The notes under the pieces are model-generated. The model had not been told where the DNA came from and ran no database searches. It worked only from the letters and a program-made list of their open reading frames with translations. Both the position numbers and the translations under genes were made by a program. Shown here one piece after another: positions 26,939 to 42,466 of a DNA stretch of 64,000 nt (within the stretch, counting starts at the first letter, position 1; each line of letters opens with the position of its first letter). The stretch covers positions 1-64,000 of the forward strand of contig JACRCD010000077.1 of the NCBI GenBank assembly GCA_016219175.1, given 5' to 3'. Source of the stretch: Deltaproteobacteria bacterium (GTDB taxonomy: Bacteria; Desulfobacterota; Desulfobulbia; Desulfobulbales; SURF-16).

Positions 26939-28000
<1,062 letters not shown>

Positions 28001-28019
28001 TGCTGCCTTCAACCAGGCA

Positions 28020-28529
28020 TCACCTTTGTCCCCCCACTTCGTTTTCCAGCTGCAGCAACTCTCTTTTTATTTCCACTCCCCCACTATATCCGCCCAGGCC
28101 GGAGGCGCCGACAACCCGGTGACAGGGAATGAACAGGGCGATGGGATTGGCATGGCATGCCTGGCCGATGGCCCGGGCCAGGGATCTGTTGCCCAGTTTC
28201 GCCGCCAGAGCCCCATAGGTTTCCGTGGCCCCGCGGGGGATCCGGCAGAGAAGGTCCCAGACCTGCTGCTGGAAAGGGGTGCCCCAGCTGATGAAAATCG
28301 ATTGCCTGAACTGGTCAAATGGGTGGGGTTCGGCTAGCAGCTGGGCAAACTCAGCAGCTGACAGCCGTTGTTCGGGCCTGCCGCTGAACGCGCCCGCCGT
28401 TTTTTGCAGCCGGATCATGGCATCTTCGTGTTTTTTTTCATCAAAGGTAAGATGGATTGTCCGGTCCCCGTGCAGCAGCTGGTAAAAGACGGGGAAGCCG
28501 GCAACGGTTGTATGTCTGTAAAAAAACAT
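28020..28529 (-). CDS. ogt: Methylated-DNA-protein cysteine methyltransferase
   Basis: DNA repair protein that takes O6-alkyl groups from guanine onto its own Cys. The active site I-P-C-H-R-V-V-G (C136) is intact; F-Q-Q-Q-V-W-D at about 86-92, T-Y-G-A-L-A-A (helix-turn-helix start) and the Arg-finger region are as expected. Length 169 aa fits Ogt rather than the two-domain Ada. It stands alone, convergent with cheB and divergent from the D,D-carboxypeptidase gene. Confidence 0.92.
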   Translation of the reverse strand: MFFYRHTTVAGFPVFYQLLHGDRTIHLTFDEKKHEDAMIRLQKTAGAFSGRPEQRLSAAEFAQLLAEPHPFDQFRQSIFISWGTPFQQQVWDLLCRIPRGATETYGALAAKLGNRSLARAIGQACHANPIALFIPCHRVVGASGLGGYSGGVEIKRELLQLENEVGGQR

Positions 28530-28781
28530 ATCGTCTATCTCCTTGTAATAACATGTCTATTCTGTTTTTTAAGGGGCGGCGTTTGCTTTTTGCCGTGGTT
28601 GTTATGCTATATTTTGCCAGAGAAACAACAAGATGGCTAATATTTCTTCAAGAAAAGTGTTGATTTTCCGATATCTGTTTTATAAGGTGGAATAAATGAG
28701 TTAACCGCTAAAGGAACTTGGCTTGGCTCTTGGCAATCCGCTGTTTTTTCATCAGAAATTTTATTCGCATCCGCACGGGCT

Positions 28782-29897
28782 ATGGCACTGTCACTTGATT
28801 TCCTGAAATATACGATTCGCGGCCAGGTTTTTTTTCTGGGCCTTGCTCTTTTCCTTGTTTGGGCCGCGGCGCCTGCCGCCGCCAAGACCGGCGCAAAGGC
28901 AGCCATCATTAAAACAACGCATAAGGCAGCCCCGGCCAAGAGTCGGGTTGCATCATCCGGCAGAAAGGCAAGGACTGATTCCGGCAAATCATCGCCGGCC
29001 ACGAAGCGAAAGGCCGCGGCCGCCCCACCGCTGGTTTGTTCAGACAGTGAACTCAGAAAAAAATTATCCTCGCGCAGCGCCATTGTTCTTGACTCCCGGA
29101 CGGGATCGGTGCTTTATGCCCACGATCCGGACCGCCCCGCGCAACCGGCCAGTACGATAAAGATAATCACCGGGCTTATCGCCATCAGTTCCCTGCGGGA
29201 TAATGAGATGGTTAAGGCCAGCAGCCACGCGGCCCGGATGCCGAGCTCAAAAGTCAATCTGCGGGCCGGAAAATCCTATGTCGCCGATGATCTGATCAAT
29301 GCGGTTCTGCTTGCTTCCGCCAACGATGCCAGCGTCGCCCTGGCCGAGAAGGTGGCGGGAACCGAATCAAGTTTTGCCCAGTTGATGACCCATAAGGCCG
29401 CGTCGCTCGGGGCGACAAATACCGTGTGCAAAACAGCCTCCGGTCTTACCGCCGAGGGGCAGCATTCGACCGCGCATGATCTGGCCGTGGTTTTTGACAA
29501 GGCCATGGACGATCAGGAGTTTGCCGAGAGGATCCGCAGAACAAAGATCCGCACCAGCTTTGGGCAGGTCTTGCGCAATCATAATAAGGCGTTATGGCGC
29601 GTTGATGGGGCTGTGGGCGGCAAAACCGGTTATACCCTGGCGGCCCGGCAGACCTATGTCGGCAAGTTCGACCGAGACGATACGGAGATTATCGTGGCGG
29701 TCATGGGCAGTGAAACCATGTGGGCGGATGTCAGCAGGCTGGTGGAGTACGGGTTTGCCAGAAAACAGCAGATGGCGGCCATGAATACCCCGGCTGGTTC
29801 GGAAGATGATCAGCTTGCCATGTCAACGGTCCCCACTGCGTTCAAAAATAATTCCCTGCAGGTTCTGACCGGAACCAAAAAACATTCCAAACTATAA
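28782..29897 (+). CDS. D-alanyl-D-alanine carboxypeptidase (PBP5/6-like)
   Basis: Low-molecular-weight PBP that trims peptidoglycan stem peptides. The serine protease set is complete: S-T-I-K (S124, K127), S-A-N (179-181) and K-T-G (281-283). A signal or anchor (about 14-34) is followed by a Lys/Ala-rich basic linker (35-80) not usual for the family. It lacks the long C-terminal domain and amphipathic anchor of PBP5, ending at 371. Periplasmic location is inferred. The next gene starts 15 bp after its stop. Confidence 0.9.
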   Translation: MALSLDFLKYTIRGQVFFLGLALFLVWAAAPAAAKTGAKAAIIKTTHKAAPAKSRVASSGRKARTDSGKSSPATKRKAAAAPPLVCSDSELRKKLSSRSAIVLDSRTGSVLYAHDPDRPAQPASTIKIITGLIAISSLRDNEMVKASSHAARMPSSKVNLRAGKSYVADDLINAVLLASANDASVALAEKVAGTESSFAQLMTHKAASLGATNTVCKTASGLTAEGQHSTAHDLAVVFDKAMDDQEFAERIRRTKIRTSFGQVLRNHNKALWRVDGAVGGKTGYTLAARQTYVGKFDRDDTEIIVAVMGSETMWADVSRLVEYGFARKQQMAAMNTPAGSEDDQLAMSTVPTAFKNNSLQVLTGTKKHSKL

Positions 29898-29911
29898 CTG
29901 CCCGGACTTAT

Positions 29912-30643
29912 GTGACAGCGCCCATCCAGGATGTTGCCGAGGTGCAGCGGGAAAAGCAGGCATGGCGCGATGGCTTAGCCCTGCGCGGCTTGCCTGGCGC
30001 AAATGAGCCCGGCCTTTTCGGTAAAGCAGCCGAACTGCTGCGCAGGGAGGCGAGTTATCGCACGGCGCGGCAGGTTTTTGTCTCGCCCGTGCCCGCGTTG
30101 CAGCAGGTGCGGATCAATTGTCTGCTTGACGGCAAGGATCTTCTCATCCCCGCCCCGGGACTTAAGGAAGGGTTCTATCTTCTCAAGCCCTATACGGTTC
30201 CTTTTTCAGCCCTGCCCCATGCCGTCTCCCTGAAAGGATTCCCCAAATACGGACGTAAGCTCCGCCGCGAGGAGCTGGAAAGTTTGGTTATCCCGCTGCT
30301 GGTCACCGGCGCGACAGCGGTTGACCGGCAGGGCGGCAGACTTGGCGACGGACTCGGTTTTTTTGACCTGAGCCATGCCATTCTTAGCGAACTGGGCGTT
30401 TTAGCCCCCGAGCGGCGCGTCATCACCTTTGTGCGGGAGGAGCAGCTCGTGGACAGCTTTCTGCCCCGGCAGTGTTGGGACGTGCTGTCGGATGTCATTG
30501 TCACGGAGCAGCACCTGTACAGCACGGAGCATGCCGCCGTGCCGCCTGGCCGGATCTTCTGGGAGCTTCTGACTGAAAACAGAATCCGGAAAGTGACCCC
30601 GCTCTGGTGGCTCAGGGGACAAGGTAACTATCCAGCTGTTTAG
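29912..30643 (+). CDS. 5-formyltetrahydrofolate cyclo-ligase-like protein
   Basis: The fold and motifs match the 5-formyl-THF cyclo-ligase superfamily: conserved R near the N-terminus, D-G-K-D-L-L-I-P-A-P and, late, the G-x-G-x-G-x-x-D-like R-L-G-D-G-L-G-F-F-D-L. At 243 aa it is somewhat longer than FolE-type ligases and resembles the less-known subgroup seen across deltaproteobacteria. The start is a GTG at 29912. The last five codons and the TAG lie within MITE copy 2, so the insertion rewrote the C-terminus. Substrate not certain. Confidence 0.72.
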   Translation: MTAPIQDVAEVQREKQAWRDGLALRGLPGANEPGLFGKAAELLRREASYRTARQVFVSPVPALQQVRINCLLDGKDLLIPAPGLKEGFYLLKPYTVPFSALPHAVSLKGFPKYGRKLRREELESLVIPLLVTGATAVDRQGGRLGDGLGFFDLSHAILSELGVLAPERRVITFVREEQLVDSFLPRQCWDVLSDVIVTEQHLYSTEHAAVPPGRIFWELLTENRIRKVTPLWWLRGQGNYPAV

Positions 30644-30746
30644 CCTGTAGACTGAAGGCTATAGGGCTGTCGGTACTGTCGTATTGCATATTTTAGGCGC
30701 TTTCCCATCAGTCTACAGCCTTCAGCCTATCTACCCGGATGGTTAC
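30624..30746 (-). mobile_element. MITE copy 2 (~123 bp), inverted relative to copy 1
   Basis: The reverse complement aligns with 25332-25456 end to end. The ends are GTAACTATCCAG and GTAACCATCCGG (as complement). Flanks GGGACAAG and GGGACGAT agree at six of eight positions, a plausible decayed 8-bp duplication. It lies between convergent genes and supplies the stop of the cyclo-ligase-like gene. Its hairpin potential could help end transcripts from both sides. Confidence 0.8.
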
Positions 30747-30769
30747 GGGACGATAAACCCATGCCCGTC

Positions 30770-32143
30770 CTACGCTTCATCCGCCTCCAGACCATATTTT
30801 TTCAGTTTTCGCCACAGTGAGACCCGGTCTATGCCCAGCATTTTGGCGGCCAGGGTTTTGTTTCCCGCCGTTTCCTGCAGCACCCAGAGAATGTAAGCCT
30901 GCTCCTGTTCGTCAAGGGTGGGAATCTCGCCGCTATCCTTTCTCCTGAAGGTTTTCAACGCCATGCCCCGCAGATCATCAGGCAGGTGGCTGGCCTCGAT
31001 CACGGGCCGGTCTGTCAGGGCCACCCCGCGCTCGATGATGTTTTCAAGCTCCCGGATATTGCCCGGAAAATCATAGCGCATCAAAATATCGAGGACCTCC
31101 TGGGAAACGCTCTCCACCTGTTTGCCGGTCAGGGTTGCATATTTTTTCAGGAAATGGCTGACCAGCAGGGGAATGTCGTCTTTTCTGTCCACCAGGGGCG
31201 GGAGGGTGAGGGAGACGACATTGATGCGGAAATAGAGATCATGGCGGAAGTGTCCTGCCTGGACCTCTTCCTGCAGATTCCTGTTGGTGGCGGAGATAAA
31301 GCGCACGTCAACCTTGACCGGGGTGGTTGAGCCCACGCGCAGGATTTCTTTTTCCTGCAGGGCGCGCAACAGTTTGACCTGCATGGTCAGCGACATCTCC
31401 GTCACCTCGTCCAGAAAGAGGGTGCCGCCATCCGCCATTTCGATCAGCCCTTTTTTCATGGCGGTCGCGCCGGTGAAAGCCCCTTTTTCATGGCCGAAAA
31501 GCTCGTTGGTCAGCAACTCTTCGCTGAAGGCCCCGCAGTTTATCGATAAGAGCTGACCGTTTTTCCTGGGGCTGACGGAGTGGATCAGGCGGGCGACAAG
31601 TTCCTTGCCTGTGCCCGACTCGCCGCACAGCACCACATTGCTGTCGGTCTGGGCAACCTGTTCCGCGGTGCGCAGCAGCTTCAGCATCTGCGGATTATTG
31701 GTGACAAGACGCGTTTCGCCATAGAAAACCTTGAGATGCTCTCTGAGTTTCTTGTTTTCCTTTTTCAGGCCGGTTTTTTCCAGCGCCTCGTGCACAACCT
31801 TGCGCACCTCGTCCAGCTTGTAGGGCTTGGCGATATAATGAAAGGCCCCGGCCTTCATGGCCTCTATGGCGGAATCCACCGTGGCGTAACCGGTGATCAT
31901 GAGAACCTCGGTGTCGGGATGCAGCTCCTTGGCCCGGCCAAGCACCCCCATGCCGTCCACCTTTTCCATTTTCAGATCGGTAATGACCAGATCATAGTCA
32001 TGCTTTTCCAGCAGACGCACGGCGTCAGGTCCGCTCATGCATCCGGTAACGCTATATCCTTCTTTTTTCAGGACATAGACCAGATTGGTCAGGGCAACCT
32101 CTTCGTCATCAACAACCAGAAGGCGATTCGCCTCTTTATTCAT
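30770..32143 (-). CDS. Sigma-54-dependent response regulator (NtrC family)
   Basis: Receiver domain with phospho-acceptor D56 (V-I-T-D-L-K-M), AAA+ domain with Walker A G-E-S-G-T-G-K-E (174-181), the sigma-54 contact loop G-A-F-T-G-A (221-226) and L-F-L-D-E-V Walker B, then a C-terminal Fis-type helix-turn-helix (about 415-455, L-G-I-D-R-V-S-L-W-R-K-L-K). A full-length activator of sigma-54 promoters, 457 aa. It is coupled to its kinase by ATGA (32140-32143). The likely target is the divergent SafE/Usp operon, whose promoter has the right sigma-54 elements. Confidence 0.93.
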   Translation of the reverse strand: MNKEANRLLVVDDEEVALTNLVYVLKKEGYSVTGCMSGPDAVRLLEKHDYDLVITDLKMEKVDGMGVLGRAKELHPDTEVLMITGYATVDSAIEAMKAGAFHYIAKPYKLDEVRKVVHEALEKTGLKKENKKLREHLKVFYGETRLVTNNPQMLKLLRTAEQVAQTDSNVVLCGESGTGKELVARLIHSVSPRKNGQLLSINCGAFSEELLTNELFGHEKGAFTGATAMKKGLIEMADGGTLFLDEVTEMSLTMQVKLLRALQEKEILRVGSTTPVKVDVRFISATNRNLQEEVQAGHFRHDLYFRINVVSLTLPPLVDRKDDIPLLVSHFLKKYATLTGKQVESVSQEVLDILMRYDFPGNIRELENIIERGVALTDRPVIEASHLPDDLRGMALKTFRRKDSGEIPTLDEQEQAYILWVLQETAGNKTLAAKMLGIDRVSLWRKLKKYGLEADEA

Positions 32144-33582
32144 ATGGTTTCTCCGTCATCATCATCCCTGAGCCAGATGACAAATGTCGTCCCTGCCCCG
32201 GGATTGCTTTCAACTGCGATATGCCCTCCGTGCGACTCGATTATGTCGTGCACAACATAGAGGCCAAGTCCGGATCCTTTGCCCACATCCTTGGTGGTAA
32301 AAAATGGATCAAATATTTTTTCGCGGAGATCGGGCGGGATGCCGGGTCCGTCATCCTCCACCATGATCTCCACGACCCTGTCGCGTTCGGTATGGGATTT
32401 CTGGGCGTTAATCCAGATATGTCCGGATTTTTCCAGGGCATCAATGGCGTTTTTGATGAGATTGAGGAAAACCTGCTGCATCCTCTGTTTGTCCACATGG
32501 ACAATAATATCCGCCGGTATGTCAATGGCGATCGCCACGTCCTTGGGCAGCTGGCCTTTGATGAGACGCATGGTGTCGTCCAAAAGCATTTTGAGGCTGG
32601 TGTCTTCCCGGTGGAACTCCTTCACCCTGGAAAACTCAAGCAGCGTGCGGACAATATCCCTGGCCTTGTCTGTCTGACTCTCGATTTGGCGCAGGAGACT
32701 TTTTTTGAAATCCAAATCCGCCTGTTCGATCTCTTCGGACAGGATCTGGGCGGAAGTGGAAATGTTTGAGAGTGGGTTGTTAAGTTCATGGGCCACGCCG
32801 GCCAGCAGGGTGCCCAGCGCGGCGAGCTTTTCCGACTGGACCAGCTGCCTTTGCCGCGCCTGCAATTCCAGGTTCATCCTCTTGAAGGCGCGCAGCAGTA
32901 CGTTGATTTCCTCTTCCGCCTCGGCCTGGGGAGGTTCAAGCATCTCGCCATGGGCGATTTTTTTTGTGTAGCCCTCGAGAAGCCGCAGGGAAGAAACAAC
33001 CTTCCGGCCTAAAATGACGGCCATGACCGTGGCCAGAATCACCGAGGCCAGGGCGGAAACCACCTGGATCGAGCGGGTCGTTTGCAGCAGGCTTTTGATG
33101 GAGGCCCGTTCCGTCAGCACGGCCTTCTCGGCAAAATCGGTCAAGGTCTTGCCATGCTGGCGCACCTGCTCCTGAAGATCCAGATAGAGCCTGTTCTGTT
33201 TTTCGCTGATGCCGAGATTTTCCAGCTTCAGCAGGTCGTTTTTGTAGGCCGCCATGGAGCGGAAGATGTCCTCGATCTGGTTCGTGGGGACATGCCGGTT
33301 CAGTTCCGGGGAATTTCCCTCAAGTTGCTGCTGGAGTGTACCCAGGTAATTCAGGGCATCGTCTAAATCTTTCTCCTGCCCGTAAAGAAAGTAGTTTTTT
33401 TCGTAACGGCGCAGCTCCAGGGTGGTCTTGAGAATGTCGTCTATTACCTCGACCAGGGCCACCTTGCGTTCCACCTGCAGTACGATTTCGTACATCATGA
33501 AGGCCGTGAAGCAGACCATAAACAGAAGCAGCGCTGATCCGGAAATAATCTTTTTCCTGATGCTCAATGCCGCAATCTTCAT
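32140..33582 (-). CDS. Membrane sensor histidine kinase, partner of the NtrC-type regulator
   Basis: Two membrane segments (about 10-31 and 172-192) enclose a ~140-aa helical periplasmic sensor, probably a four-helix bundle. A HAMP linker (about 193-245), the HisKA domain with V-A-H-E-L-N-N-P-L (H265) and the ATPase domain with D-D-G-P-G-I-P, F-F-T-T-K and G-S-G-L-G-L follow. The NtrB-like H-E-L-N-N-P box fits a sigma-54 system. Ligand unknown. The gene begins the kinase-regulator operon; its start faces the small-protein/exporter operon. Confidence 0.92.
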
Positions 33583-33753
33583 GTCTTTTCCTCCCCGGTC
33601 ATTTTATCCACAGCGACATAAGTCCGATCCATCCCGCCTTGCCGCGTCATTCACCGCGCTACCAGGCTGCTCCGCCGGTCACCTCGTTCGTTCCTTGCCA
33701 GACCAAGCGCCTGGAACTCAGGTCGCATCTACAGTTTGCCCATCATACATCAT

Positions 33754-33772
33754 TTGTTGCTAATCGCAACAA
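33754..33772. promoter_or_regulatory. Candidate activator site 1 (TTGTTGC-N5-GCAACAA)
   Basis: A perfect 7-bp palindrome with 5-bp spacer, about 145 bp before the sigma-54 promoter. Its core GTTGC-N5-GCAAC recurs at 33846-33860. The layout is that of upstream activating sequences bound by NtrC-family dimers. Confidence 0.65.
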
Positions 33773-33845
33773 TATGTTTACTTGTGCAACACTGGTAATA
33801 ATATCTCATGAAATCAGTATGTTGTTCCGTGGGTAAAATTTTCGC

Positions 33846-33860
33846 GTTGCAAAAGGCAAC
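33846..33860. promoter_or_regulatory. Candidate activator site 2 (GTTGC-AAAAG-GCAAC)
   Basis: Second copy of the palindrome, 90 bp from the first (about 8.6 helical turns) and about 57 bp before the -24 element. A half-like TTGTGCAAC lies between them near 33783. Confidence 0.65.
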
Positions 33861-33916
33861 ACGCTGTTTTTTTGGCGTTTCCGTGTAACTTGTTGAATTT
33901 AAAGTATTAATTTTGG

Positions 33917-33932
33917 TGGCATCCCTGTTGCA
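33917..33932 (+). promoter_or_regulatory. Sigma-54 promoter of the small-protein/SafE/Usp operon
   Basis: TGGCATCCCTGTTGCA matches TGGCACG-N4-TTGCW with GG and GC ten bases apart, differing only at the C and G after TGGCA. Transcription would begin near 33944, about 75 bp before the first gene. Confidence 0.85.
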
Positions 33933-34017
33933 CAATAGGGGGGCGAAACGAACGGACAGAACCCAACTTAACACAAATTTTCGCCCGCTCCCGCGGGGCA
34001 ATGATGAGGAGGAAGAG

Positions 34018-34176
34018 ATGAAAAAATTAACCCGTTTTGACTGGCTGATGATGGCTGTCACTTTTGCTGAAGCCGGCATGGATTTAGGGCGGGAACGCAA
34101 AGCATCCCCGCCGCGGCCGGAAAAAAATCGCGCCGTGACAACGGATGGTCGGCCCGTGGCTGGCGTGCGTTTGTAA
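34018..34176 (+). CDS. 52-aa small protein, first gene of the SafE/Usp operon
   Basis: GAGGAGGAAGAG directly before the ATG at 34018 is a very strong ribosome site, which sets the start well inside a longer open frame. The product is a short helix-forming protein (M-K-K-L-T-R-F-D-W-L-M-M ... ) with a basic, Pro-rich tail. No family recognised. The distance from the sigma-54 promoter suggests it heads the operon. Confidence 0.65.
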   Translation: MKKLTRFDWLMMAVTFAEAGMDLGRERKASPPRPEKNRAVTTDGRPVAGVRL

Positions 34177-34179
34177 AAG

Positions 34180-34710
34180 ATGGCTTTGGCAGGCGCAACA
34201 ATGGAAAAAATCATCAAGGCATTCCAGGATTCAATGGCAGCTGCGGCATTTGCCGAGGCGGATGAACATGAAAGCGCGCGGGAGTTTTTGCGAGCCGGGA
34301 AAAATGCCCATAAAAAAATCCTTCTGGGCACCGATGAAACCCAGCTTGCCCCGAAGGTGGTGGCCTACGCCCTGAACATGTGTGCCCGGCTGGGAGTTGG
34401 TCTTGAAATAGTGCAGGTTCTTCCCGAGGCATCCATGCCGAAGGATCTGACCATAAAATACGGCAATGAGTCGTTGAGTCCGCAGGAAATGCAAGCAGGC
34501 TTCTCCCGGCGCGGGATTTTGTATGAGTTCTTTTTCGGCAATGCCAGCCTTGAGGAGGAAATCATGCAGCATCTGGCCAAACGGCGCGACATCATGCTGT
34601 TTGTTTTAAGGATGTCCGGCCAGGGCGCAAAAAATCAGAAGGCGGAAAACGATCTCGTCAAGAAGTTCCAATGCCCGGTGGTGATTCTTGATGACCCGCT
34701 GCCGGCCTGA
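34180..34710 (+). CDS. UspA-like stress protein without the ATP motif
   Basis: Residues about 44-176 fit one universal-stress domain: K-K-I-L-L-G-T-D-E-T-Q (first strand), A-Y-A-L-N-M-C-A-R-L-G, V-L-P and the final C-P-V-V-I-L. The ATP-binding G-x2-G-x9-G-S/T pattern is absent (R-M-S-G-Q-G-A-K-N-Q instead), so it is probably of the non-ATP-binding class. An N-terminal helix of about 40 residues is extra. The start may be ATG 34201. Same operon as the 52-aa gene, 3 bp apart. Confidence 0.7.
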   Translation: MALAGATMEKIIKAFQDSMAAAAFAEADEHESAREFLRAGKNAHKKILLGTDETQLAPKVVAYALNMCARLGVGLEIVQVLPEASMPKDLTIKYGNESLSPQEMQAGFSRRGILYEFFFGNASLEEEIMQHLAKRRDIMLFVLRMSGQGAKNQKAENDLVKKFQCPVVILDDPLPA

Positions 34711-34772
34711 AAACAACGTAATATCAATACAGTAAATTTTACCACATAACAAATTAGAGGAGATTAGGGAAA

Positions 34773-35006
34773 ATGCAAAATAAACAAGCCAAGAAGCCGT
34801 ACCTGCAGACCATTATATTCGGCGCGGTATCACTGACGCTCTATATCTATCTTTTCAGAAACGAAAAGCTGGTTATGGACACATTTACCCTGGGCGGCTG
34901 GTACACGGTGCTGCCGATAGGCACCGCTTTTCTTTTTTCATTCATCCACGGCGCCTTTGCCAGCAACATGCTGACATCCCTCGGCCTGGAAGCTAAGAAG
35001 AAATAA
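34773..35006 (+). CDS. 77-aa two-span inner-membrane protein
   Basis: Two hydrophobic stretches (about 11-28 and 42-62) separated by a short charged loop, with a Lys-rich C-terminus suggesting the ends face the cytoplasm. AGGAG lies upstream of the ATG. The C-terminal half (F-S-F-I-H-G-A-F-A-S) is small-residue rich, as in helix-packing subunits. No named family is recalled with confidence. Its place directly before the TauE/SafE exporter suggests an accessory subunit. Confidence 0.7.
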   Translation: MQNKQAKKPYLQTIIFGAVSLTLYIYLFRNEKLVMDTFTLGGWYTVLPIGTAFLFSFIHGAFASNMLTSLGLEAKKK

Positions 35007-35048
35007 TTTTAATCGAATCACATATTCTGAAGGAGAGAAGGAAAATCC

Positions 35049-36398
35049 ATGAAAAAATTACTGATTGTACTGATAACAGCCCTTTTTCTGCTGCCGCTGG
35101 CCTCATCGGCTTTTGCCGCCGGTGGCGCCGGCCCTGACAAGGATCTGCTCAAGGGTGTTTTTCTGCAGGTTGATGCGGCCAGCCATACCGCGGTTTTTAA
35201 ACGGGACGCCGTGGACCAGACCATTACCTATAACTTAGGCAGTAAAATGAAAGCCCAGGATCTGCCTCTCAACAAAAAGGTCATGGTTAGCCTGGACAAA
35301 GAGGCCGGTGAAGGGGTGATCAAGGACGTGGACCGCATGTTCCTGGACATGAACTTCAAAAACATTTTGTCCCTGATCATCGTCGGTTTCGTCGGCGGCC
35401 TGCTGAGCGGGTTTATCGGTTCGGGCGGCGCCTTTGTGCTCACCCCGGCCATGATGACTCTCGGCGTGCCGGGGGCCGTGGCGGTTGCCAGCAACATGTG
35501 CCATAAGTTCCCCAAGGCCATGGTGGGAACCTATAAACGATGGAAGTACGGCCAGGTTGACCTGAAGCTCGCCGCCGTCATGTCGGTAACCGCCATTATC
35601 GGCGTGCAGATCGGTATCCAGGTCCAGAAGGCCATTCTCCATGCCTGGGGCAATGCCGGTTCAAACCTCTATGTCAGCACGGTTTTCGTTATCATCCTGG
35701 TGCTGGTCGGCGGCTATGTCTTCTTTGATGCCAAGAAGCTGGCCAAGGGCGCGGATGTCAGCGGCAATCAGACCTCAAAGCTTGCCCTGGCCATGCAGCG
35801 TATTAATCTGCCGCCCATGATGCACTTCAAGGTGGCCAAGGTGAAAATTTCCGCCTGGATCACCATTCCTGTCGGTCTTGCCACCGGCATGCTGGCGGCC
35901 ACCATTGCCGTCGGCGGTTTTATCGGCGTGCCCGGCATGATCTATGTCATCGGCGCCTCCGCCATGGTGGCCAGCGCCACCGAGCTTGGCATCGCCTTTG
36001 TCATGGGCGCCTGGGGATCCATCCAGTGGGGTCTTTCCGGCTTGATCGACATCCGTCTCGCCCTGCTGCTGCTTTCCGCCTCCTTGATCGGCGTGCAGCT
36101 TGGCGCCTTGGGCACCACCTATGTTAAGGACTACATCATCAAGATGGTCATGGCCTCGGTTATGTTGATCGTTGCCGTCAGCCGCGGCTTTCTGGTGCCC
36201 GGTTATCTTGGCGATGTCGGACTGCGCGCCCCGATTGATCCGGCGACCGCCGCGCTTTTCAGCCAAATCAGTTTCTGGTCGCTGGTTACCGCCCTGTTCA
36301 CCTCTTCCGGCATTATCATCGTGGCCATGATCAGCGGCATGACCAAATCCAGAAGAGAAGAAAGGCTCGTTGCCAAGGAAGTAATCAATAATGGCTAA
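35049..36398 (+). CDS. TauE/SafE-family sulfite/organosulfonate exporter with N-terminal periplasmic domain
   Basis: Residues 1-24 are a cleavable-type signal. A ~75-aa beta-rich domain (about 27-100) follows, then the TauE/SafE membrane core with about eight spans; G-F-V-G-G-L-L-S-G-F-I-G-S-G-G-A near 112-127 and a second G-L-A-T-G-M-L-A-A-T-I-A-V-G-G repeat are the family's half-repeats. Members move sulfite, sulfoacetate or related anions. The extra domain may bind substrate or a partner. Fits an organism that handles sulfur oxyanions. The stop overlaps the Usp start by 8 bp. Confidence 0.85.
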   Translation: MKKLLIVLITALFLLPLASSAFAAGGAGPDKDLLKGVFLQVDAASHTAVFKRDAVDQTITYNLGSKMKAQDLPLNKKVMVSLDKEAGEGVIKDVDRMFLDMNFKNILSLIIVGFVGGLLSGFIGSGGAFVLTPAMMTLGVPGAVAVASNMCHKFPKAMVGTYKRWKYGQVDLKLAAVMSVTAIIGVQIGIQVQKAILHAWGNAGSNLYVSTVFVIILVLVGGYVFFDAKKLAKGADVSGNQTSKLALAMQRINLPPMMHFKVAKVKISAWITIPVGLATGMLAATIAVGGFIGVPGMIYVIGASAMVASATELGIAFVMGAWGSIQWGLSGLIDIRLALLLLSASLIGVQLGALGTTYVKDYIIKMVMASVMLIVAVSRGFLVPGYLGDVGLRAPIDPATAALFSQISFWSLVTALFTSSGIIIVAMISGMTKSRREERLVAKEVINNG

Positions 36399-37248
36399 GT
36401 ACAGAAAGATACTCGTCGCCTACGACGGATCGATCTCAGCCCAGAACGCCCTGCGCCAGGCCTGCCGCCTGGCCCGGGCGGATCAAAGCTGGATCAAGGT
36501 GCTGGCGGTTGTTCCCTTTTATGAGGGCGATCTCGAACTTATCGGCATCAGCAACATCAAGGAGATGATGCTGGGTCCCGGACAGAAACTGCTGGTCGAG
36601 GCCCGGCAGATCGCCGATGATGAACACGTGCATGTGCTCACCAACCTTGAACAGGGTGAGCCGTATGAACAGATCGTGCATGTGGCTGAGGATGAAAGCT
36701 GCGATCTGATCATCATGGGGCGCAGGGGGCGAAACCGCATCGAGAGTGATCTGATCGGCGGAGTAACCGCCAGGGTAATCGGACACACCAACAGGGATGT
36801 GCTGGTCATCCCAGACCAGGCGACCATCAGCTGGGAGAAAATACTTCTGGCCTGGGACGGATCACCCTACAGTCAAGTTGCCTTGGAAACAGCCCTGAAG
36901 CTGGCCAAGGAGAGGAACTCGGTGCTGTGCGCGGTTTCGGTGGCCTATACCAACGATGAGTTTTACGCCCTGGCCCACAAGGCGGCGCAGGAGCTGGTCA
37001 ACAAGGCCGGCGAAATGCTGGAGCAGATCAAAAAACGGGGTGAAGAGGAAGGTGTAACGCTAACCACCAGCATCAAGGAGGGTGAACCGTTTGAGGCCAT
37101 CACCGAGCTGGCCCGTGATACCCATGCCACCCTCATCGTCATGGGGTCCCATGGACGAAAAGGGTTGACCCGGCTGCTCATGGGCAGCGTCACCGAGCAT
37201 GTTGTCGGTCTGGCTTCCTGTCCCGTGCTGGTGAGTCATTTGAAATAA
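36391..37248 (+). CDS. Tandem-domain universal stress protein
   Basis: Two UspA domains (about 4-145 and 147-285). The ATP-binding pattern G-x2-G-x9-G-S is complete in the second domain (M-G-S-H-G-R-K-G-L ... M-G-S-V-T) and near complete in the first (M-G-R-R-G ... I-G-G-V). Each starts with the K-I-L-[V/L]-A-[Y/W]-D-G-S strand. Probably an ATP-binding regulator of the upstream exporter; this is inferred from 8-bp overlap and common pairing. Closed by a strong terminator. Confidence 0.9.
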   Translation: MAKYRKILVAYDGSISAQNALRQACRLARADQSWIKVLAVVPFYEGDLELIGISNIKEMMLGPGQKLLVEARQIADDEHVHVLTNLEQGEPYEQIVHVAEDESCDLIIMGRRGRNRIESDLIGGVTARVIGHTNRDVLVIPDQATISWEKILLAWDGSPYSQVALETALKLAKERNSVLCAVSVAYTNDEFYALAHKAAQELVNKAGEMLEQIKKRGEEEGVTLTTSIKEGEPFEAITELARDTHATLIVMGSHGRKGLTRLLMGSVTEHVVGLASCPVLVSHLK

Positions 37249-37338
37249 ATTTTAGAAAACTATAGATTTCCCGGATGTGCTTTGGAAAATTCCTCTTTTC
37301 CTTCAAGATTTTTGGGAAAATTCCTCTCCCTAAGAGGC

Positions 37339-37372
37339 GGGGACTGCCGGGCATTGGCAGTCCCCTTTTTTT
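37339..37372 (+). terminator. Terminator of the SafE/Usp operon
   Basis: GGGGACTGCC (37339-37348) pairs perfectly with GGCAGTCCCC (37356-37365), a 7-nt loop between, and seven T follow. Two diverged copies of GGGAAAATTCCTCT precede it in the 3' UTR. Confidence 0.93.
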
Positions 37373-37381
37373 ATGCAGTCA

Positions 37382-38278
37382 TCAGGCCTTGTTTTCCTTG
37401 AAGACAGGCTCCATCCCGCACATCTGGGCATAGACGCCGATTTCAGTCTGGAACTGTTTGACGTAAGGGCAGTCCCAGATGGCCAGCATCTTGTTCCGGA
37501 TGAGGAAGGCCGTCAGCATTCGGCCGTCAAATTCCCGGTCATGGTCAGGAGTTCGCTCCAGCATGTAGGGGAAAATCTGGGGCCTGCGGCAGACCTCTGG
37601 CCGGCTGGGGTATATGCGGCAGCCGCCGCTTGCCCCGTCAAGGTTGGGACAGATGCTTAAGCGGGGCAGGATCATGCTCCAGCCCTGTCGCCAATGGTAC
37701 AAGGCGGCCGGACGCTGGTAAAAAGGGATGTCGGTAATGATAAGTGGCAGGTCCGCAGCGGCGGATGTGGCGCGGCTCATGTCGTTATCCACCCTGGGCA
37801 GGTCAAAAAGAGCGGCTTCCCTGGCGCTCAGAGGGATTTCAAAAAACTCCTGTTGCTGGCCGCGGTCTGGCCCGGTGCAGCACAAGGTGCAGCCGCAGGG
37901 ACCGCAGAGCAGGCTGTTGATCTCTTCAAGTTCCCGGGTCAGGACATTTTGCGCGACCCAGCTGTCGATGGCGGTAAACGGGTCCACGGGCTGCAGGTCG
38001 CCGGCAAAGATAACCCGGCTGGGCGGCCGAGGGTGCTTCAATCGTTCAAAGGGGCGCATTGCCTCAAGATAGGGGAGCAGCTCAAGGCCTGGTTGTTCGT
38101 AGCGGATACCCGCTGTTTCCACCGGTTCGGTGAGTTCGGCCAGCAGTGACTCAAGGTCTGCAAAGGGGCCGGTGAGAAAGAGCATGCCGGCCAGCCTGGC
38201 CAGGGGCAAAACGGGATGCGCCAATCTTTTCAGGCCGGGTTGGCATAATGTTCTCTGTTGTGGAGTCAGCATGGCCAT
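37382..38278 (-). CDS. YkgJ-family cysteine-cluster protein
   Basis: Cysteines are arranged as C-G-P-C-G-C-T-L-C-C (about 125-134), then I-C-P-N-L and G-C-R-I-Y-P-S-R-P-E-V-C-R, the zinc- or iron-chelating CxxxCxxCC pattern of the YkgJ/UPF0153 family. The second half of the cluster is the most conserved. At 298 aa it is longer than YkgJ, with an N-terminal ~110-aa region lacking known motifs. Biochemical role unknown; no neighbour clarifies it. It converges on the SafE/Usp terminator. Confidence 0.8.
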   Translation of the reverse strand: MAMLTPQQRTLCQPGLKRLAHPVLPLARLAGMLFLTGPFADLESLLAELTEPVETAGIRYEQPGLELLPYLEAMRPFERLKHPRPPSRVIFAGDLQPVDPFTAIDSWVAQNVLTRELEEINSLLCGPCGCTLCCTGPDRGQQQEFFEIPLSAREAALFDLPRVDNDMSRATSAAADLPLIITDIPFYQRPAALYHWRQGWSMILPRLSICPNLDGASGGCRIYPSRPEVCRRPQIFPYMLERTPDHDREFDGRMLTAFLIRNKMLAIWDCPYVKQFQTEIGVYAQMCGMEPVFKENKA

Positions 38279-38413
38279 ACATAACGGTTTTTGCGGAGGA
38301 TTTCAATCATAATGGTTTTCCGCTCTTGACCGGCAGGCACGGTGCGACTATAGTGCGCCATTTCGAAATGCTCCATGAGCAAATGACCTATTATTCAACC
38401 CATCCAGCACACT

Positions 38414-39198
38414 ATGTCACCTGATAAGCAGCCAGCAACGGAATCCATGGAAAAGCAGGCCCTGACCGAGCACCTGCGGGATCTGCGCACCAGCCTGATC
38501 CGCTCCCTAATTGCGGTGGCCATCGGTTTCGGCGTTTCCTATTATTTCATTGAGCAAATTGGCGTCTGGTTTTTGCACCCCCTCTTTGCCGTGCTGCCGA
38601 AAAATGCCAGTCTGATCTTCACTTCCTACCAGGAGGGCTTTTTTTTTATCTGAAATTAGCCCTGGTCAGCGGTGTCCTGCTGGCCAGTCCGGTCATCTTC
38701 TGGCAGATCTGGTCTTTCATCGCCCCCGGCCTTTACCGGCATGAGAAAAAGGTTGTTCTGCCCTTTTCCTTCCTATCGTCCGTCTGCTTCCTGGGCGGCG
38801 CCTGTTTCGGTTATTACTTTGTTTTTTCCCCGGCCTTCCGTTTTCTCATGGGCTATACCACGGATTTTCTCTCACCCCTGCCCACGGTGACGGAGTACTT
38901 TTCCCTGGCGCTGCGGCTGCTTATCGCCTTTGGCGTTATCTTCGAGCTGCCTGTTTTCATGGTCCTGCTGGCCAAGCTCGGCATGGTGAACGGACCTTTT
39001 CTGAGCAGGAACCGCAAATATGCCTTTCTGCTTTCCTTTATCATCGCCGCCATCGTCACCCCGACTCCTGATGTGGTCAATCAGCTGCTGATGGCTGTCC
39101 CTTTAGTCATCCTCTATGAGGTCAGCATTGTTGCAGTCAGGCTGTTTGGCAAAAAAAGCAGCGGAGCCGGGGAGATGGAGGATGGGGAGGATAATTAA
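38414..39198 (+). pseudogene. tatC: Twin-arginine translocase subunit TatC, frameshifted at a T9 run
   Basis: Frames 38414-38653 and the frame resuming to 39198 together spell a normal ~260-aa TatC: L-T-E-H-L-x-D-L-R near the start, F-T-S-Y-Q-E-G-F-F, S-P-V-I-F-W-Q-I-W and E-L-P-V-F are family signatures. The frame breaks at nine T (38639-38647); ten T or seven T would restore it. This may be a sequencing miscount, a real mutation, or transcriptional slippage. TatC is usually essential to Tat export, so a genuine null would be surprising. No tatA/B lies in the window. Confidence 0.8.
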
Positions 39199-39203
39199 AT
39201 AGT

Positions 39204-40130
39204 ATGTCCCCAAAGGGCATTTGTCTTTTGCTTATTGTTTCTGCTATTTGGGCCCCATTTCGTCTTGTGCTGGCAAACGTAACGCCGGAGTGCGGGACCT
39301 GCGTAGAATCCTTCGGAGGGGAGGCGGATTGCTTACCTTTCAAGTGTCCGGATATTTCTGCTTCATTCGATAAATTTGCAGGATCGCAAGGTGGGAAAGA
39401 CGTTATCGGCTTACTCTCGCGGGTCGAGAATGCAGAGGATTATCCCGATACCATTATTGAGAATGAAAATGTTATGCAGGCCATGAGTTTATTCATTCGC
39501 TTGCCCGGCATCGGAGAGTTGCCTAAAGAAGAGAGGGAATGGCTTTTTCGCTATTTTACCGTGAAGGCTGATTGGGAAAAAGAGATGTCATTCGGGGTTG
39601 CGATGAACCGGGTAAATGGTGACCTTTATTTGGTGGATTTCCATACGGCGGCGACGACTCAGCCGAGCAGTCTCTATGTCTTCGATGGTTCAACTTATAC
39701 CAAAATAGCAAGGGGCGAAAACGGCATGATTGGCGTGACGGATTTCAAAGCGAAAGGCAATGAGTTGGGTGTTATTTATTACCGAGAGAATTCGTCACAT
39801 CCCGAGAAGGATTTTGCCTTGCTGGAAAAAGAAAAAAACGAATGGTTTGTCCGCTGGAATTCCTTTCAGGAAAGTGAGTGGATTTCCGCCGATGGTGATG
39901 TTGAGTATCTGGCTGATGATCTGTCATTGCTTGCGGTGACAGGTTCATGCTTTGGGTTGGGTCGAGTAGAAGAAACAGCACGTAACAAGATATTTGCAGT
40001 TATTGGCCGGCAAGATGCGGGAATATGTTTCACCTCCATCTGGGAACGGAAAGGGGGTGGCTACGTAAGGAAATCAAAACTCCCAGCGGGCTCATCCCTT
40101 TACGAAAGGCTCAGGGAAATGGTTGATTGA
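39204..40130 (+). CDS. Secreted protein of unknown function
   Basis: A signal peptide (about 1-24) precedes a Cys-bearing region (C-G-T-C, then two more Cys by residue 48) and a beta-rich body without a recognised family. Composition is more AT-rich than its neighbours. It begins 6 bp after tatC, so it may be co-transcribed. The 3' end overlaps the HEAT-repeat gene by 39 bp in convergent orientation. Periplasmic or outer-surface location is inferred. Confidence 0.65.
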   Translation: MSPKGICLLLIVSAIWAPFRLVLANVTPECGTCVESFGGEADCLPFKCPDISASFDKFAGSQGGKDVIGLLSRVENAEDYPDTIIENENVMQAMSLFIRLPGIGELPKEEREWLFRYFTVKADWEKEMSFGVAMNRVNGDLYLVDFHTAATTQPSSLYVFDGSTYTKIARGENGMIGVTDFKAKGNELGVIYYRENSSHPEKDFALLEKEKNEWFVRWNSFQESEWISADGDVEYLADDLSLLAVTGSCFGLGRVEETARNKIFAVIGRQDAGICFTSIWERKGGGYVRKSKLPAGSSLYERLREMVD

Positions 40131-40526
40131 TGACCCGTTTCCTGGCTGGTTGTAAAAATCAGCCGCGATTTCGCGTACCTGCGGGTCCGGATCAGTGAGC
40201 ATCGGTTCAATAAGGGCGCGGGCTTCCGGGCCGCCGATGATGCCCAGGAGATGCACGGCCTCGCCCCTGATCCAGGGAGTGGTATCGGCCAGCAGCGGCG
40301 CGAGAGCGGGCACGGCCAGTTGGACCTCGCCGGGCCTGATGACCTTCAGCTCCTCAAAGAGCACCGCCACCCCCATGCGCACCATGAAGCGCTCATCCCG
40401 CAGCAGCTCGCCGGTCAACAGGTAATGGGCCGGATCCTGTTTGAACATGGCCAGGATATTGTCCACATGGCCCATCTCCGGAAAATCACCGATGACCTTG
40501 GTCAACTCGTGATCGCTTGTATCCAT
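40092..40526 (-). CDS. HEAT-repeat protein
   Basis: Two or three HEAT-type helical repeats (about 50-125): L-A-D-T-T-P-W-I-R-G-E-A-V-H-L-L-G and L-T-D-P-D-P-Q-V-R-E-I-A are characteristic, with conserved Asp-Pro and Arg positions. Such scaffolds bind other proteins. 144 aa, soluble, no signal. Its last 12 codons overlap the convergent secreted-protein gene. No partner can be named. Confidence 0.75.
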   Translation of the reverse strand: MDTSDHELTKVIGDFPEMGHVDNILAMFKQDPAHYLLTGELLRDERFMVRMGVAVLFEELKVIRPGEVQLAVPALAPLLADTTPWIRGEAVHLLGIIGGPEARALIEPMLTDPDPQVREIAADFYNQPGNGSSINHFPEPFVKG

Positions 40527-40590
40527 ATTTGGTCCTTGTTTGCGAAGATCGACTGTTTGCCGCTGCTGCTAAAAAATTACCAAGAGCGTC

Positions 40591-40615
40591 ATTCCGGCAT
40601 GCTTCTAGCCGGAAT
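40591..40615. repeat. REP-like hairpin
   Basis: ATTCCGGC (40591-40598) and GCCGGAAT (40608-40615) enclose ATGCTTCTA. The phrase GTCATTCCGGC ... GCCGGAATCCA is a very common dispersed palindrome in bacterial chromosomes. Confidence 0.6.
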
Positions 40616-40685
40616 CCATCGTTTTTCTGAGTACGCCCATTGGCCGCCTTCATTTTTCCTGTCATTTTATAGTATGGGTTTCTTT

Positions 40686-40841
40686 GAAAAAAATCCAAGA
40701 TTAAGTTAGATTCTTTTGACACACGAGAGAAGATGAACAGCAGGGAGCACGCATGTCCTTGTGCTTTCCCTGTTTTCCTCTTTGTTATCATGTCTTCGCG
40801 CTGACGGGAAGTGCGAACGTGGCTGGGAAATAGATGCGTTC
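40686..40841 (+). repeat. Left direct repeat of the toxin-antitoxin cassette
   Basis: Aligns with 42536-42691. Strongest blocks: AATCCAA...TTAGATT-TTTTG at the start, and CTCTTTGTTATCA ... GTGCGAA ... GCTGG ... AAATA at the end. Each copy also has an imperfect stem (GGGAGCAC/GTGC here). Confidence 0.65.
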
Positions 40842-40989
40842 TTTTTTTTACTCGTATTTTGGTGCGTCTGCTTGGGATTGATACTCCGTACCCGCTTCTG
40901 ATTGCACCACCCGCCAGACGTCCGGTTTTGCTTGCCAAGTCTTCAGGGTGAAGGTGCGGAATTAATATTTCGAAAATCATATTTTAAAA

Positions 40990-41018
40990 TTTTTATTAAC
41001 AAAACATGTTAATAAAAA
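40990..41018. promoter_or_regulatory. Putative HigA operator
   Basis: TTTTTATTAAC and GTTAATAAAAA are a perfect 11-bp inverted repeat around AAAACAT, 19 bp before the toxin start. Position and length fit autoregulation by the helix-turn-helix antitoxin. GTTAATAAAA recurs once at about 42709, past the second direct repeat. Confidence 0.65.
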
Positions 41019-41036
41019 TGTTGACCAACGTTCGGA

Positions 41037-41372
41037 ATGCGTATATTCTTTAAAACAAAAAAACTACAAAAGATCTGCTCAGAAGAATCTGAGTCCCGGA
41101 AGCAGCTGGGGGCCAAATGCGGACTGAAGCTGCAACAGCGGATGATGGAACTTAAGGCAGCGCAGGATCTTGCCGACATCTCCCGCTTGCCGCCGGCAAG
41201 ATGCCATGAACTGACAGGGAACAGAACAGGACAACTATCTGTTGACCTGGTACACCCTTATCGTCTTTTGTTTGTCGTTACCAATAATCCTTATCCTGAA
41301 CGGAGCAATGGAGGTTTGGATTGGAATGGTGTCACTGAAATTGAAATCATTGAAATTGCTGACACGCACTAA
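41037..41372 (+). CDS. higB: RelE/ParE-family (HigB-like) toxin
   Basis: A 111-aa basic protein of the RelE/HigB class, which cleaves mRNA on the ribosome. The pattern F-K-T-K-K-L-Q-K at the start, L-P-P-A-R-C-H-E-L-T-G and G-Q-L-S-V-D-L-V-H-P-Y-R-L-L-F are typical of the subgroup whose antitoxin carries an ImmA-like peptidase domain. The C-terminal I-I-E-I-A-D-T-H fits too. Toxin-first order is the HigBA arrangement. Antitoxin starts 15 bp after. Confidence 0.85.
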   Translation: MRIFFKTKKLQKICSEESESRKQLGAKCGLKLQQRMMELKAAQDLADISRLPPARCHELTGNRTGQLSVDLVHPYRLLFVVTNNPYPERSNGGLDWNGVTEIEIIEIADTH

Positions 41373-41386
41373 GAAAGAGAGGCGCT

Positions 41387-42466
41387 ATGCTGACCGCACA
41401 GAAAAAATACGAATTTGAGCCGGATTATGCCATACCACCAGGAGCTACCTTGCTGGAAGTTATGGAATCCCTCGAAATGACGCAAAAAGAGATGGCGGTT
41501 AGAACAGGGGTGACTGAGCAAACCCTGACTCGTATTATTAAAGGTGAGCAGCCGATATCCTATGAAACCGCTAACCGGCTTGAACTGGTTACCCAGGTCC
41601 CTGCCAGGCTTTGGAATAATCTGGAAGCGCAATACCGGGAACAAATAGCTAAAATTGAGGAGAGGCAGAGGTTTAAGTCTCATATCGAATGGCTGAAAAC
41701 TATTCCCACAAAAGAGTTGATTGATCGCGGGTGCCTGGAAGCTGATAAAGATAAGGTGAAGCTGCTGAGAAAGACCCTGGCTTTTTTTGGCGTCAGCAGC
41801 GTCAAGGCTTGGCAAGACGTCTGGGAGATTCCCGCCGTGGCGGCAAGGAGATCGCCGTGCTTTGAATCCCTGCCTGGGGATGCGTCAGCCTGGATTCGGC
41901 AAGGGGAACTGCAGGCCCATGAAAGAGAATGCGCTCCCTTTGACAAAAAAAAATTCAGAGATGTTTTGCAACAGATTCGCTCCATGACCCGCGAAGAACC
42001 TTCGGTGTTCGAACCGGAAATGAAAAGGCTTTGTGCCGAAGCGGGCGTCGCTATTGCCCTGGTCCGCGAGATGAAAAAGGTTCCATGGAATGGCGCAACC
42101 AAGTGGCTTACCCCGCGCAAGGCCATGATTCTTCTTTGCCTTCGCGGCAAAGGGGAAGACAAGTTCTGGTTCTCTTTTTTTCATGAGGCCGGCCATATAT
42201 TACACGACAACAAAAAAGACCTGCTGATCAACGACGATAGTCATGATGATCCCCGTGAGGAAAGAGCCAATACCTTTGCCTCCGAGTTTCTTATCCCTGG
42301 CCGGTACAACCATATCATTCGTCAATTCCAAACAAAGATCGACGTTATCAATATGGCCAAAGAGCTTGATATTGCCCCGGGAATCGTTGCGGGTCGTTAT
42401 CAGTTTTTGACCGGTAAATGGAATTTTTTTAACGATCTGATACGGAAGTTTAATTGGGTCTTATAA
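41387..42466 (+). CDS. higA: HigA-type antitoxin with XRE and ImmA/IrrE metallopeptidase domains
   Basis: Helix-turn-helix at about 21-70 (M-T-Q-K-E-M-A-V-R-T-G-V-T-E-Q-T-L-T-R-I-I-type sequence), then a linker and a ImmA/IrrE zinc peptidase domain with H-E-A-G-H (266-270) and a downstream acidic helix (E-E-R-A-N-T-F-A-S-E-F-L-I-P) that supplies the third ligand. At 359 aa it is much larger than a plain HigA. It should neutralise HigB and repress the operon; the peptidase may act on itself or a regulator, which is speculative. Confidence 0.85.
   Translation: MLTAQKKYEFEPDYAIPPGATLLEVMESLEMTQKEMAVRTGVTEQTLTRIIKGEQPISYETANRLELVTQVPARLWNNLEAQYREQIAKIEERQRFKSHIEWLKTIPTKELIDRGCLEADKDKVKLLRKTLAFFGVSSVKAWQDVWEIPAVAARRSPCFESLPGDASAWIRQGELQAHERECAPFDKKKFRDVLQQIRSMTREEPSVFEPEMKRLCAEAGVAIALVREMKKVPWNGATKWLTPRKAMILLCLRGKGEDKFWFSFFHEAGHILHDNKKDLLINDDSHDDPREERANTFASEFLIPGRYNHIIRQFQTKIDVINMAKELDIAPGIVAGRYQFLTGKWNFFNDLIRKFNWVL

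Follow-up and report, generated by a model that had tools for sequence, protein, structure and literature searches.

The two-component system encoded near the middle of the window (the whole 64,000-nucleotide stretch of DNA analysed here) very probably switches on a divergent operon for a TSUP-family transporter and universal-stress (Usp) proteins, acting through upstream palindromic sites and a sigma-54 promoter. We assign this reading, including its full mechanism, a probability of roughly 0.8. The parts, their order, the geometry of the sites, their conservation and the presence of a single rpoN gene in the genome (PF04552, 215 bits) are read directly from the sequence. In the proposed mechanism, the membrane kinase (32140-33582) would sense an envelope signal and phosphorylate the NtrC-type regulator (30770-32143), which would bind three GTTGC-N5-GCAAC-type sites (33756, 33776 and 33846), form an AAA+ assembly and thereby drive sigma-54 RNA polymerase at 33917-33932. 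The predicted transcript would run to about 37365 and carry the genes for a small protein, UspX, a 77-aa membrane protein, the TSUP transporter and Usp2. The circuit probably serves tolerance or homeostasis towards an inorganic (oxy)anion, supported by the stress proteins, and the same regulator probably acts in trans on a small-protein promoter on contig C91 of the same genome.

Control region, kinase-regulator pair and probable target operon

Two exact palindromes, the predicted upstream activating site 1 (GTTGCTAATCGCAAC, 33756..33770) and site 3 (GTTGCAAAAGGCAAC, 33846..33860), lie 161 and 71 bp, respectively, before the sigma-54 -24/-12 promoter TGGCATCCCTGTTGCA (33917..33932, + strand, TGGCA-N6-TTGCA), and are spaced 90 bp apart; the original prediction had the positions of both the palindrome pair and the promoter exactly right. 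The arms of site 1 extend beyond the GTTGC/GCAAC core to 7 bp (TTGTTGC/GCAACAA with N5). A weaker site 2 (GTTTACTTGTGCAAC, 33776..33790), with two mismatches, follows 20 bp after site 1; none of the three sites is assigned a strand. GTTGC-N5-GCAAC occurs twice in the 64-kb window, against a mean of 0.09 in shuffles, and none of 100 shuffles contained two sites. TGGCATCCCTGTTGCA is the sole exact match to the promoter pattern in the window, and we infer a transcription start for the operon near 33943. With one mismatch allowed, the pattern occurs twice in the window against 7.95 expected, and since this is not above chance the promoter alone is weak, the case for it being made by its conserved position. 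The intergenic region contains one forward -24/-12 match and, within one mismatch, zero reverse matches, so that sigma-54 autoregulation of the kinase-regulator operon was rejected. A weak sigma-70-like match (33769-33742) overlaps site 1, and the region has four such matches versus 2.7 in shuffles.

The kinase and regulator genes are both transcribed leftward (- strand) and overlap by 4 bp. The response regulator (30770..32143) is NtrC-type, with Pfam matches for a receiver, a sigma-54 AAA+ domain and a Fis-type HTH, and the GAFTGA motif is seen in its translation; its divergent placement from a sigma-54 control region preceding the TSUP/Usp operon had been correctly predicted, and it is the likely activator. 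The membrane sensor histidine kinase (32140..33582), identified from Pfam matches, invariant residues and a structure model, has an all-helical periplasmic sensor region in which 13 positions are invariant in 28 sequences, including R58, R59, E61, K62, N63, Y113 and R141; it might be guessed that the arginines hold an anion. The sensor model (mean pLDDT 85) is an all-helical bundle, for which no Foldseek match reached E 0.001 (the top rows were NarQ, E 3e-3), and the best VIA-align match was to McpS (Z 15.5, rmsd 2.4, 119 aligned). The VIA-align matches are generic four-helix bundles, designed proteins among them, and therefore no sensor ligand can be named.

The operon lies on the + strand and begins with an unannotated gene (34018..34176) for a 52-aa small protein of what we call the FAEA family, members of which have no match in Pfam or NCBIfam. 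It is followed by UspX (34180..34710), a divergent universal-stress protein (PF00582, 26.4 bits against a cut-off of 24) with an N-terminal FAEA segment, the true start of which is probably 34201, judging from the ortholog in genome G226 and the profile match. The 77-aa membrane protein (34773..35006), which adjoins the TSUP gene and has no curated family match, was detected by tblastn at 77 of 80 related loci (the best 80 of 441 relatives). The TSUP (TauE/SafE) transporter itself (35049..36398, 449 aa) matches PF01925 TauE (123.8 bits, E 1.2e-35) as its sole Pfam family and has no match in NCBIfam, and a sequence-based search for a solved structure returned none. The tandem universal-stress protein Usp2 (36391..37248, two PF00582 domains) comes last, and a terminator-like hairpin with a 12-bp stem and T run (37339..37365) marks the likely operon end. 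The 'SafE/Usp operon' of the original prediction thus holds as to its PF01925 and PF00582 genes, but the 52-aa first gene and the 77-aa membrane protein had been overlooked; with these, a missed third site and a likely second target on C91, the words 'complete' and 'full circuit' claimed too much.

Known systems and the proposed anion transport

TauE/SafE sulfite exporters belong to a sulfonate pathway, whereas the window transporter, which shares PF01925 with them, sits in a sigma-54/Usp operon and has about 100 extra N-terminal residues, its TauE domain beginning at residue 109. The kind of circuit is already known, and the literature searched contained neither this lineage of it nor its site grammar. 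The comparisons below draw on the accessible portions of the papers cited. In Desulfovibrio vulgaris, DVU3303-DVU3305 encode a Lon-receiver protein, a kinase and a sigma-54 regulator, which act on DVU3302-DVU3298 (PMC3333781, PMC4641369, PMC10102598). Rajeev 2011 mapped DVU3305 to DVU3302-3298, which include UspA-type and membrane proteins (PMC3333781), and Kazakov 2015 listed nine sigma-54 operons whose TSUP or PSE transporters have no known substrate (PMC4641369). A study by Trotter 2023 tied DVU3303-3305 and DVU3299, a putative anion transporter, to chlorate stress, and DVU0539-0545, of the same layout as the window locus, to molybdate (PMC10102598), also citing activation of the latter operon's promoter by its regulator in E. 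coli.

The likeness of DVU3303-3305 to the window locus is one of gene content, i.e. a sigma-54 two-component system beside an operon encoding membrane proteins, UspA-type proteins and a putative anion transporter. It includes a Lon-receiver gene, whereas no Lon protease with a receiver domain is present at 27000-42000 of the window, the genome having a Lon-receiver gene on C91. Lon-type loci (L041 from Desulfogranum japonicum, L049, L083, L177 and L178) combine the TSUP family and palindromes of the window locus with regulators at around 50% identity, and therefore the site alone does not name one regulator. For DVU0539-0545 the likeness is one of layout, with a kinase-regulator operon divergent from genes for Usp, a transporter, a small membrane protein and Usp. 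In the window locus the gene order differs from that given for DVU0539-0545 in the accessible text, the small membrane protein coming ahead of the transporter, and the transporter is of the TSUP family, that of DVU0539-0545 being of the PSE family.

These comparisons bear on the export of a 'sulfite-type anion' that had originally been proposed, for which the window offers the PF01925 match, while the closest genetic evidence is on Desulfovibrio under chlorate and molybdate stress (PMC10102598). An exporter of sulfite, or of a related sulfur oxyanion, induced by that anion would suit a lineage of sulfur-cycling bacteria (as judged from record titles) and has a precedent in Cupriavidus necator TauE, a sulfite exporter cited in PMC5840216. 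The same paper, however, judged TSUP function in sulfate reducers not predictable from sequence, and the D. vulgaris counterpart is important under chlorate stress (PMC10102598), while the same class of site also precedes SLC13-type permeases and the transporter is without an NCBIfam match, so that we regard such an exporter as unlikely, if still worth serious consideration. The accessible text of PMC12316311 contains no mention of TSUP.

Conservation and the regulator likely to read the sites

Conservation was assessed from a TSUP protein search of genome contigs, which gave 441 relatives, the best 80 being analysed; 78-locus counts leave out the contig-truncated and wrongly cut L072 and L076, which are still included in the 80, and the spacing and offset tests (n=77) also leave out the near-duplicate L036. 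Among the best 80 of 441, a related kinase is divergent from the operon at 40 loci, and 38 of these have a palindrome (at most one mismatch) followed 40-200 bp on by a promoter match (at most one mismatch), compared with 1 for a reversed-palindrome control. Exact palindromes at the 78 loci number 66 in 61,754 upstream bases versus 10 in 934,556 other bases. A site with at most three mismatches occurs exactly 20 bp after a good one in 20 of 77 relatives, against 3 at +19 and 0-4 loci for each remaining site-to-site offset below 80 bp, and the offset of site 2 is therefore called conserved. Palindrome-to-promoter distances fall into classes of 71-72, 80-84, 89-94 and, mostly, 158-175 bp, which the window distances (71 and 161) fit. 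The short classes (71/81/92) step by about one DNA turn, a test that does not separate 10.5 bp from 9.5-11 bp; a single helical phase for all sites was not supported, the 81 and 171 classes having no common 10.5-bp phase.

The module is also found beyond these loci. Its long-spacing form was located at 42 places in 38 of 257 class genomes (control 0). Of the 30 places examined, 24 run into the gene for UspX, the 77-aa protein or TSUP, with L113 counted among them on a short UspX match alone; the other six comprise three that look like chance matches inside other genes (L096, L103, L112) and three at Usp, Lon-receiver or kinase/SLC13-type genes (L093, L099, L104). Its short-spacing form was located in 11 of 395 phylum genomes (against 1 in the control), several matches sitting between a related regulator and genes for Usp, an SLC13-type permease or a cytidylate-kinase-like protein, with L130 resembling a chance match and L131 running into an unrelated gene. 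At L104, L125, L132 and L182, a GTTGC-N5-GCAAC-type site and sigma-54 promoter lie near genes for a CitMHS/TrkA_C (SLC13-type) permease, Usp and a related regulator, and at L124 and L133 a palindrome and sigma-54 promoter separate a related regulator from a Usp-like ORF, behind which comes a cytidylate-kinase-like gene (PF13189 in L124). The entire module, sigma-54 promoter included, was also seen at L067, L069, L073, L078 and L079, in MAGs titled Thermoleophilia or Actinomycetes, groups in which, to our knowledge, sigma-54 is unexpected. Another locus, L006, lies in a record titled Ktedonobacter racemifer, a title that is probably wrong; the TSUP locus is Desulfobulbales-like (69% identity).

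Within the family, 7 of 22 genomes have a TSUP ortholog (E 1e-60 or better), the six genomes of the genus all among them, and the window TSUP is nearer to that of another genus (G226, 80%) than to those of its own (69-71% over nearly the full length; a partial match reaches 77%). At the four same-genus loci examined, TSUP keeps the palindromes and follows an SLC13-type permease, and the stretches read contain no kinase or regulator near TSUP, which shows that adjacency is not required there.

In the genome itself, seven exact palindromes were found (reversed control 2), two of which are the window sites; the remaining five lie within ORFs, with zero sigma-54 matches downstream in the stretches read. 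The strict module pattern recovers this operon alone, which had suggested a one-target regulon, a view that was dropped because the relaxed pattern adds C88 and C91, giving three places in 4.2 Mb (this operon, a paralogous TSUP circuit on C88 and a small-protein gene on C91; control 0). The C88 circuit has a GTTTC-N5-GTAAC site 166 bp upstream of its promoter, and its regulator, the best paralog in the genome (46%), has the recognition helix DRSTTWRK and adjoins its own TSUP gene and promoter. This second sigma-54/TSUP circuit (L151, C88:47500-58500) also has its own kinase, with the same RRYEKN sensor motif, and receiver proteins.

Recognition helices were compared among full-length regulators, 62 of which were aligned. 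At palindrome loci the regulators have DRVSLWRK as their common helix, altered by no more than a few single changes, even where overall identity is as low as about 50%, and among the genome's 12 closest full-length regulators only that at 30770-32143 keeps it, the other 11 being changed; the row of this regulator (L134) shows no palindrome solely because its stretch stops short of the sites. The correlation suggests that the window regulator recognises GTTGC-N5-GCAAC sites. Upstream of the C91 promoter, at 181 and 92 bp, are site-like sequences with 1 and 2 mismatches, respectively; the promoter precedes a gene for a lone 58-aa protein (L181 9218-9394) in the family of the 52-aa protein, and is divergent from the Lon-receiver gene. 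Because this 181/92 geometry matches that of L074, and in view of the recognition helix, the C91 promoter is a likely trans target of the window regulator. The GTTGC site is absent from the sigma-54 promoters on C64 and C81.

Another sigma-54 regulator, e.g. the partner of the Lon-type receiver on C91, might instead mainly bind the sites, leaving the adjacent pair as one input or as a non-activator. The retention of sites by same-genus TSUP genes that lack a neighbouring regulator would fit this, as would the Lon-receiver gene on C91 and the roughly 30 stretches in the genome matching the AAA+ part of the regulator, but it is improbable given that the recognition helix is kept in 0 of the 11 other closest regulators, that the C91 stretch read has no full-length regulator match, and that kinase and sites are paired at 38 of 40 loci. 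A coincidence of palindromes and promoter without function, to which the commonness of the one-mismatch promoter pattern in the window might lend colour, was rejected as having a negligible chance on the basis of the window shuffles, the failure of any of 20000 intergenic shuffles to yield two exact palindromes, the upstream enrichment (66 vs 10) and the conservation at 38 of 40 loci against a control of 1.

The FAEA family and a possible wider regulon

FAEA proteins (52-63 aa) share the motif FDRLMMAITFAEAxE, strings of which did not occur in the literature searched. Of 56 operon leaders tested, 27 encode one, and a single lone member was seen with a sigma-54 promoter to itself. A 13-member profile matched 11 places in the genome (on C53, C91, C64 and C81), in every group just downstream of a sigma-54 match, and the family is present in 3 of 21 other family genomes; the motif also occurs in Usp and receiver-protein ORFs. 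A faint match to the FimV C-terminal family (E 0.043, below cut-off), with a helix-Gly-helix look, suggests that the FAEA protein could be a single TPR-like hairpin.

More broadly, we consider it conceivable, at somewhat short of even odds, that the enhancer code (three GTTGC-N5-GCAAC sites, set spacings and a -24/-12 promoter), not described before, defines a widespread envelope anion-stress regulon linking TSUP and SLC13-type permeases, Usp proteins and the new FAEA family (possibly TPR-like, and either the first operon product or alone in trans), the code being inherited by different regulator lineages in MAGs labelled Desulfobacterota, Nitrospirae and Actinomycetes/Thermoleophilia. The analysis turns a guess about one genome into a regulatory grammar open to testing, in which the regulator is named, along with three sites, one promoter and two predicted targets, and which could help to assign signal and substrate to a large and mostly uncharacterised transporter family of sulfur-cycling bacteria, and a small-protein family is exposed that the profile libraries used here miss. 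Two-FAEA-repeat proteins also open two further sigma-54 operons, one at L205 and L152 (C81:50500-64000) and one at L204 (C64:73500-83000), where they are followed by receiver-domain ORFs, and the C81 operon runs on to a kinase-like ORF and a third TSUP gene.
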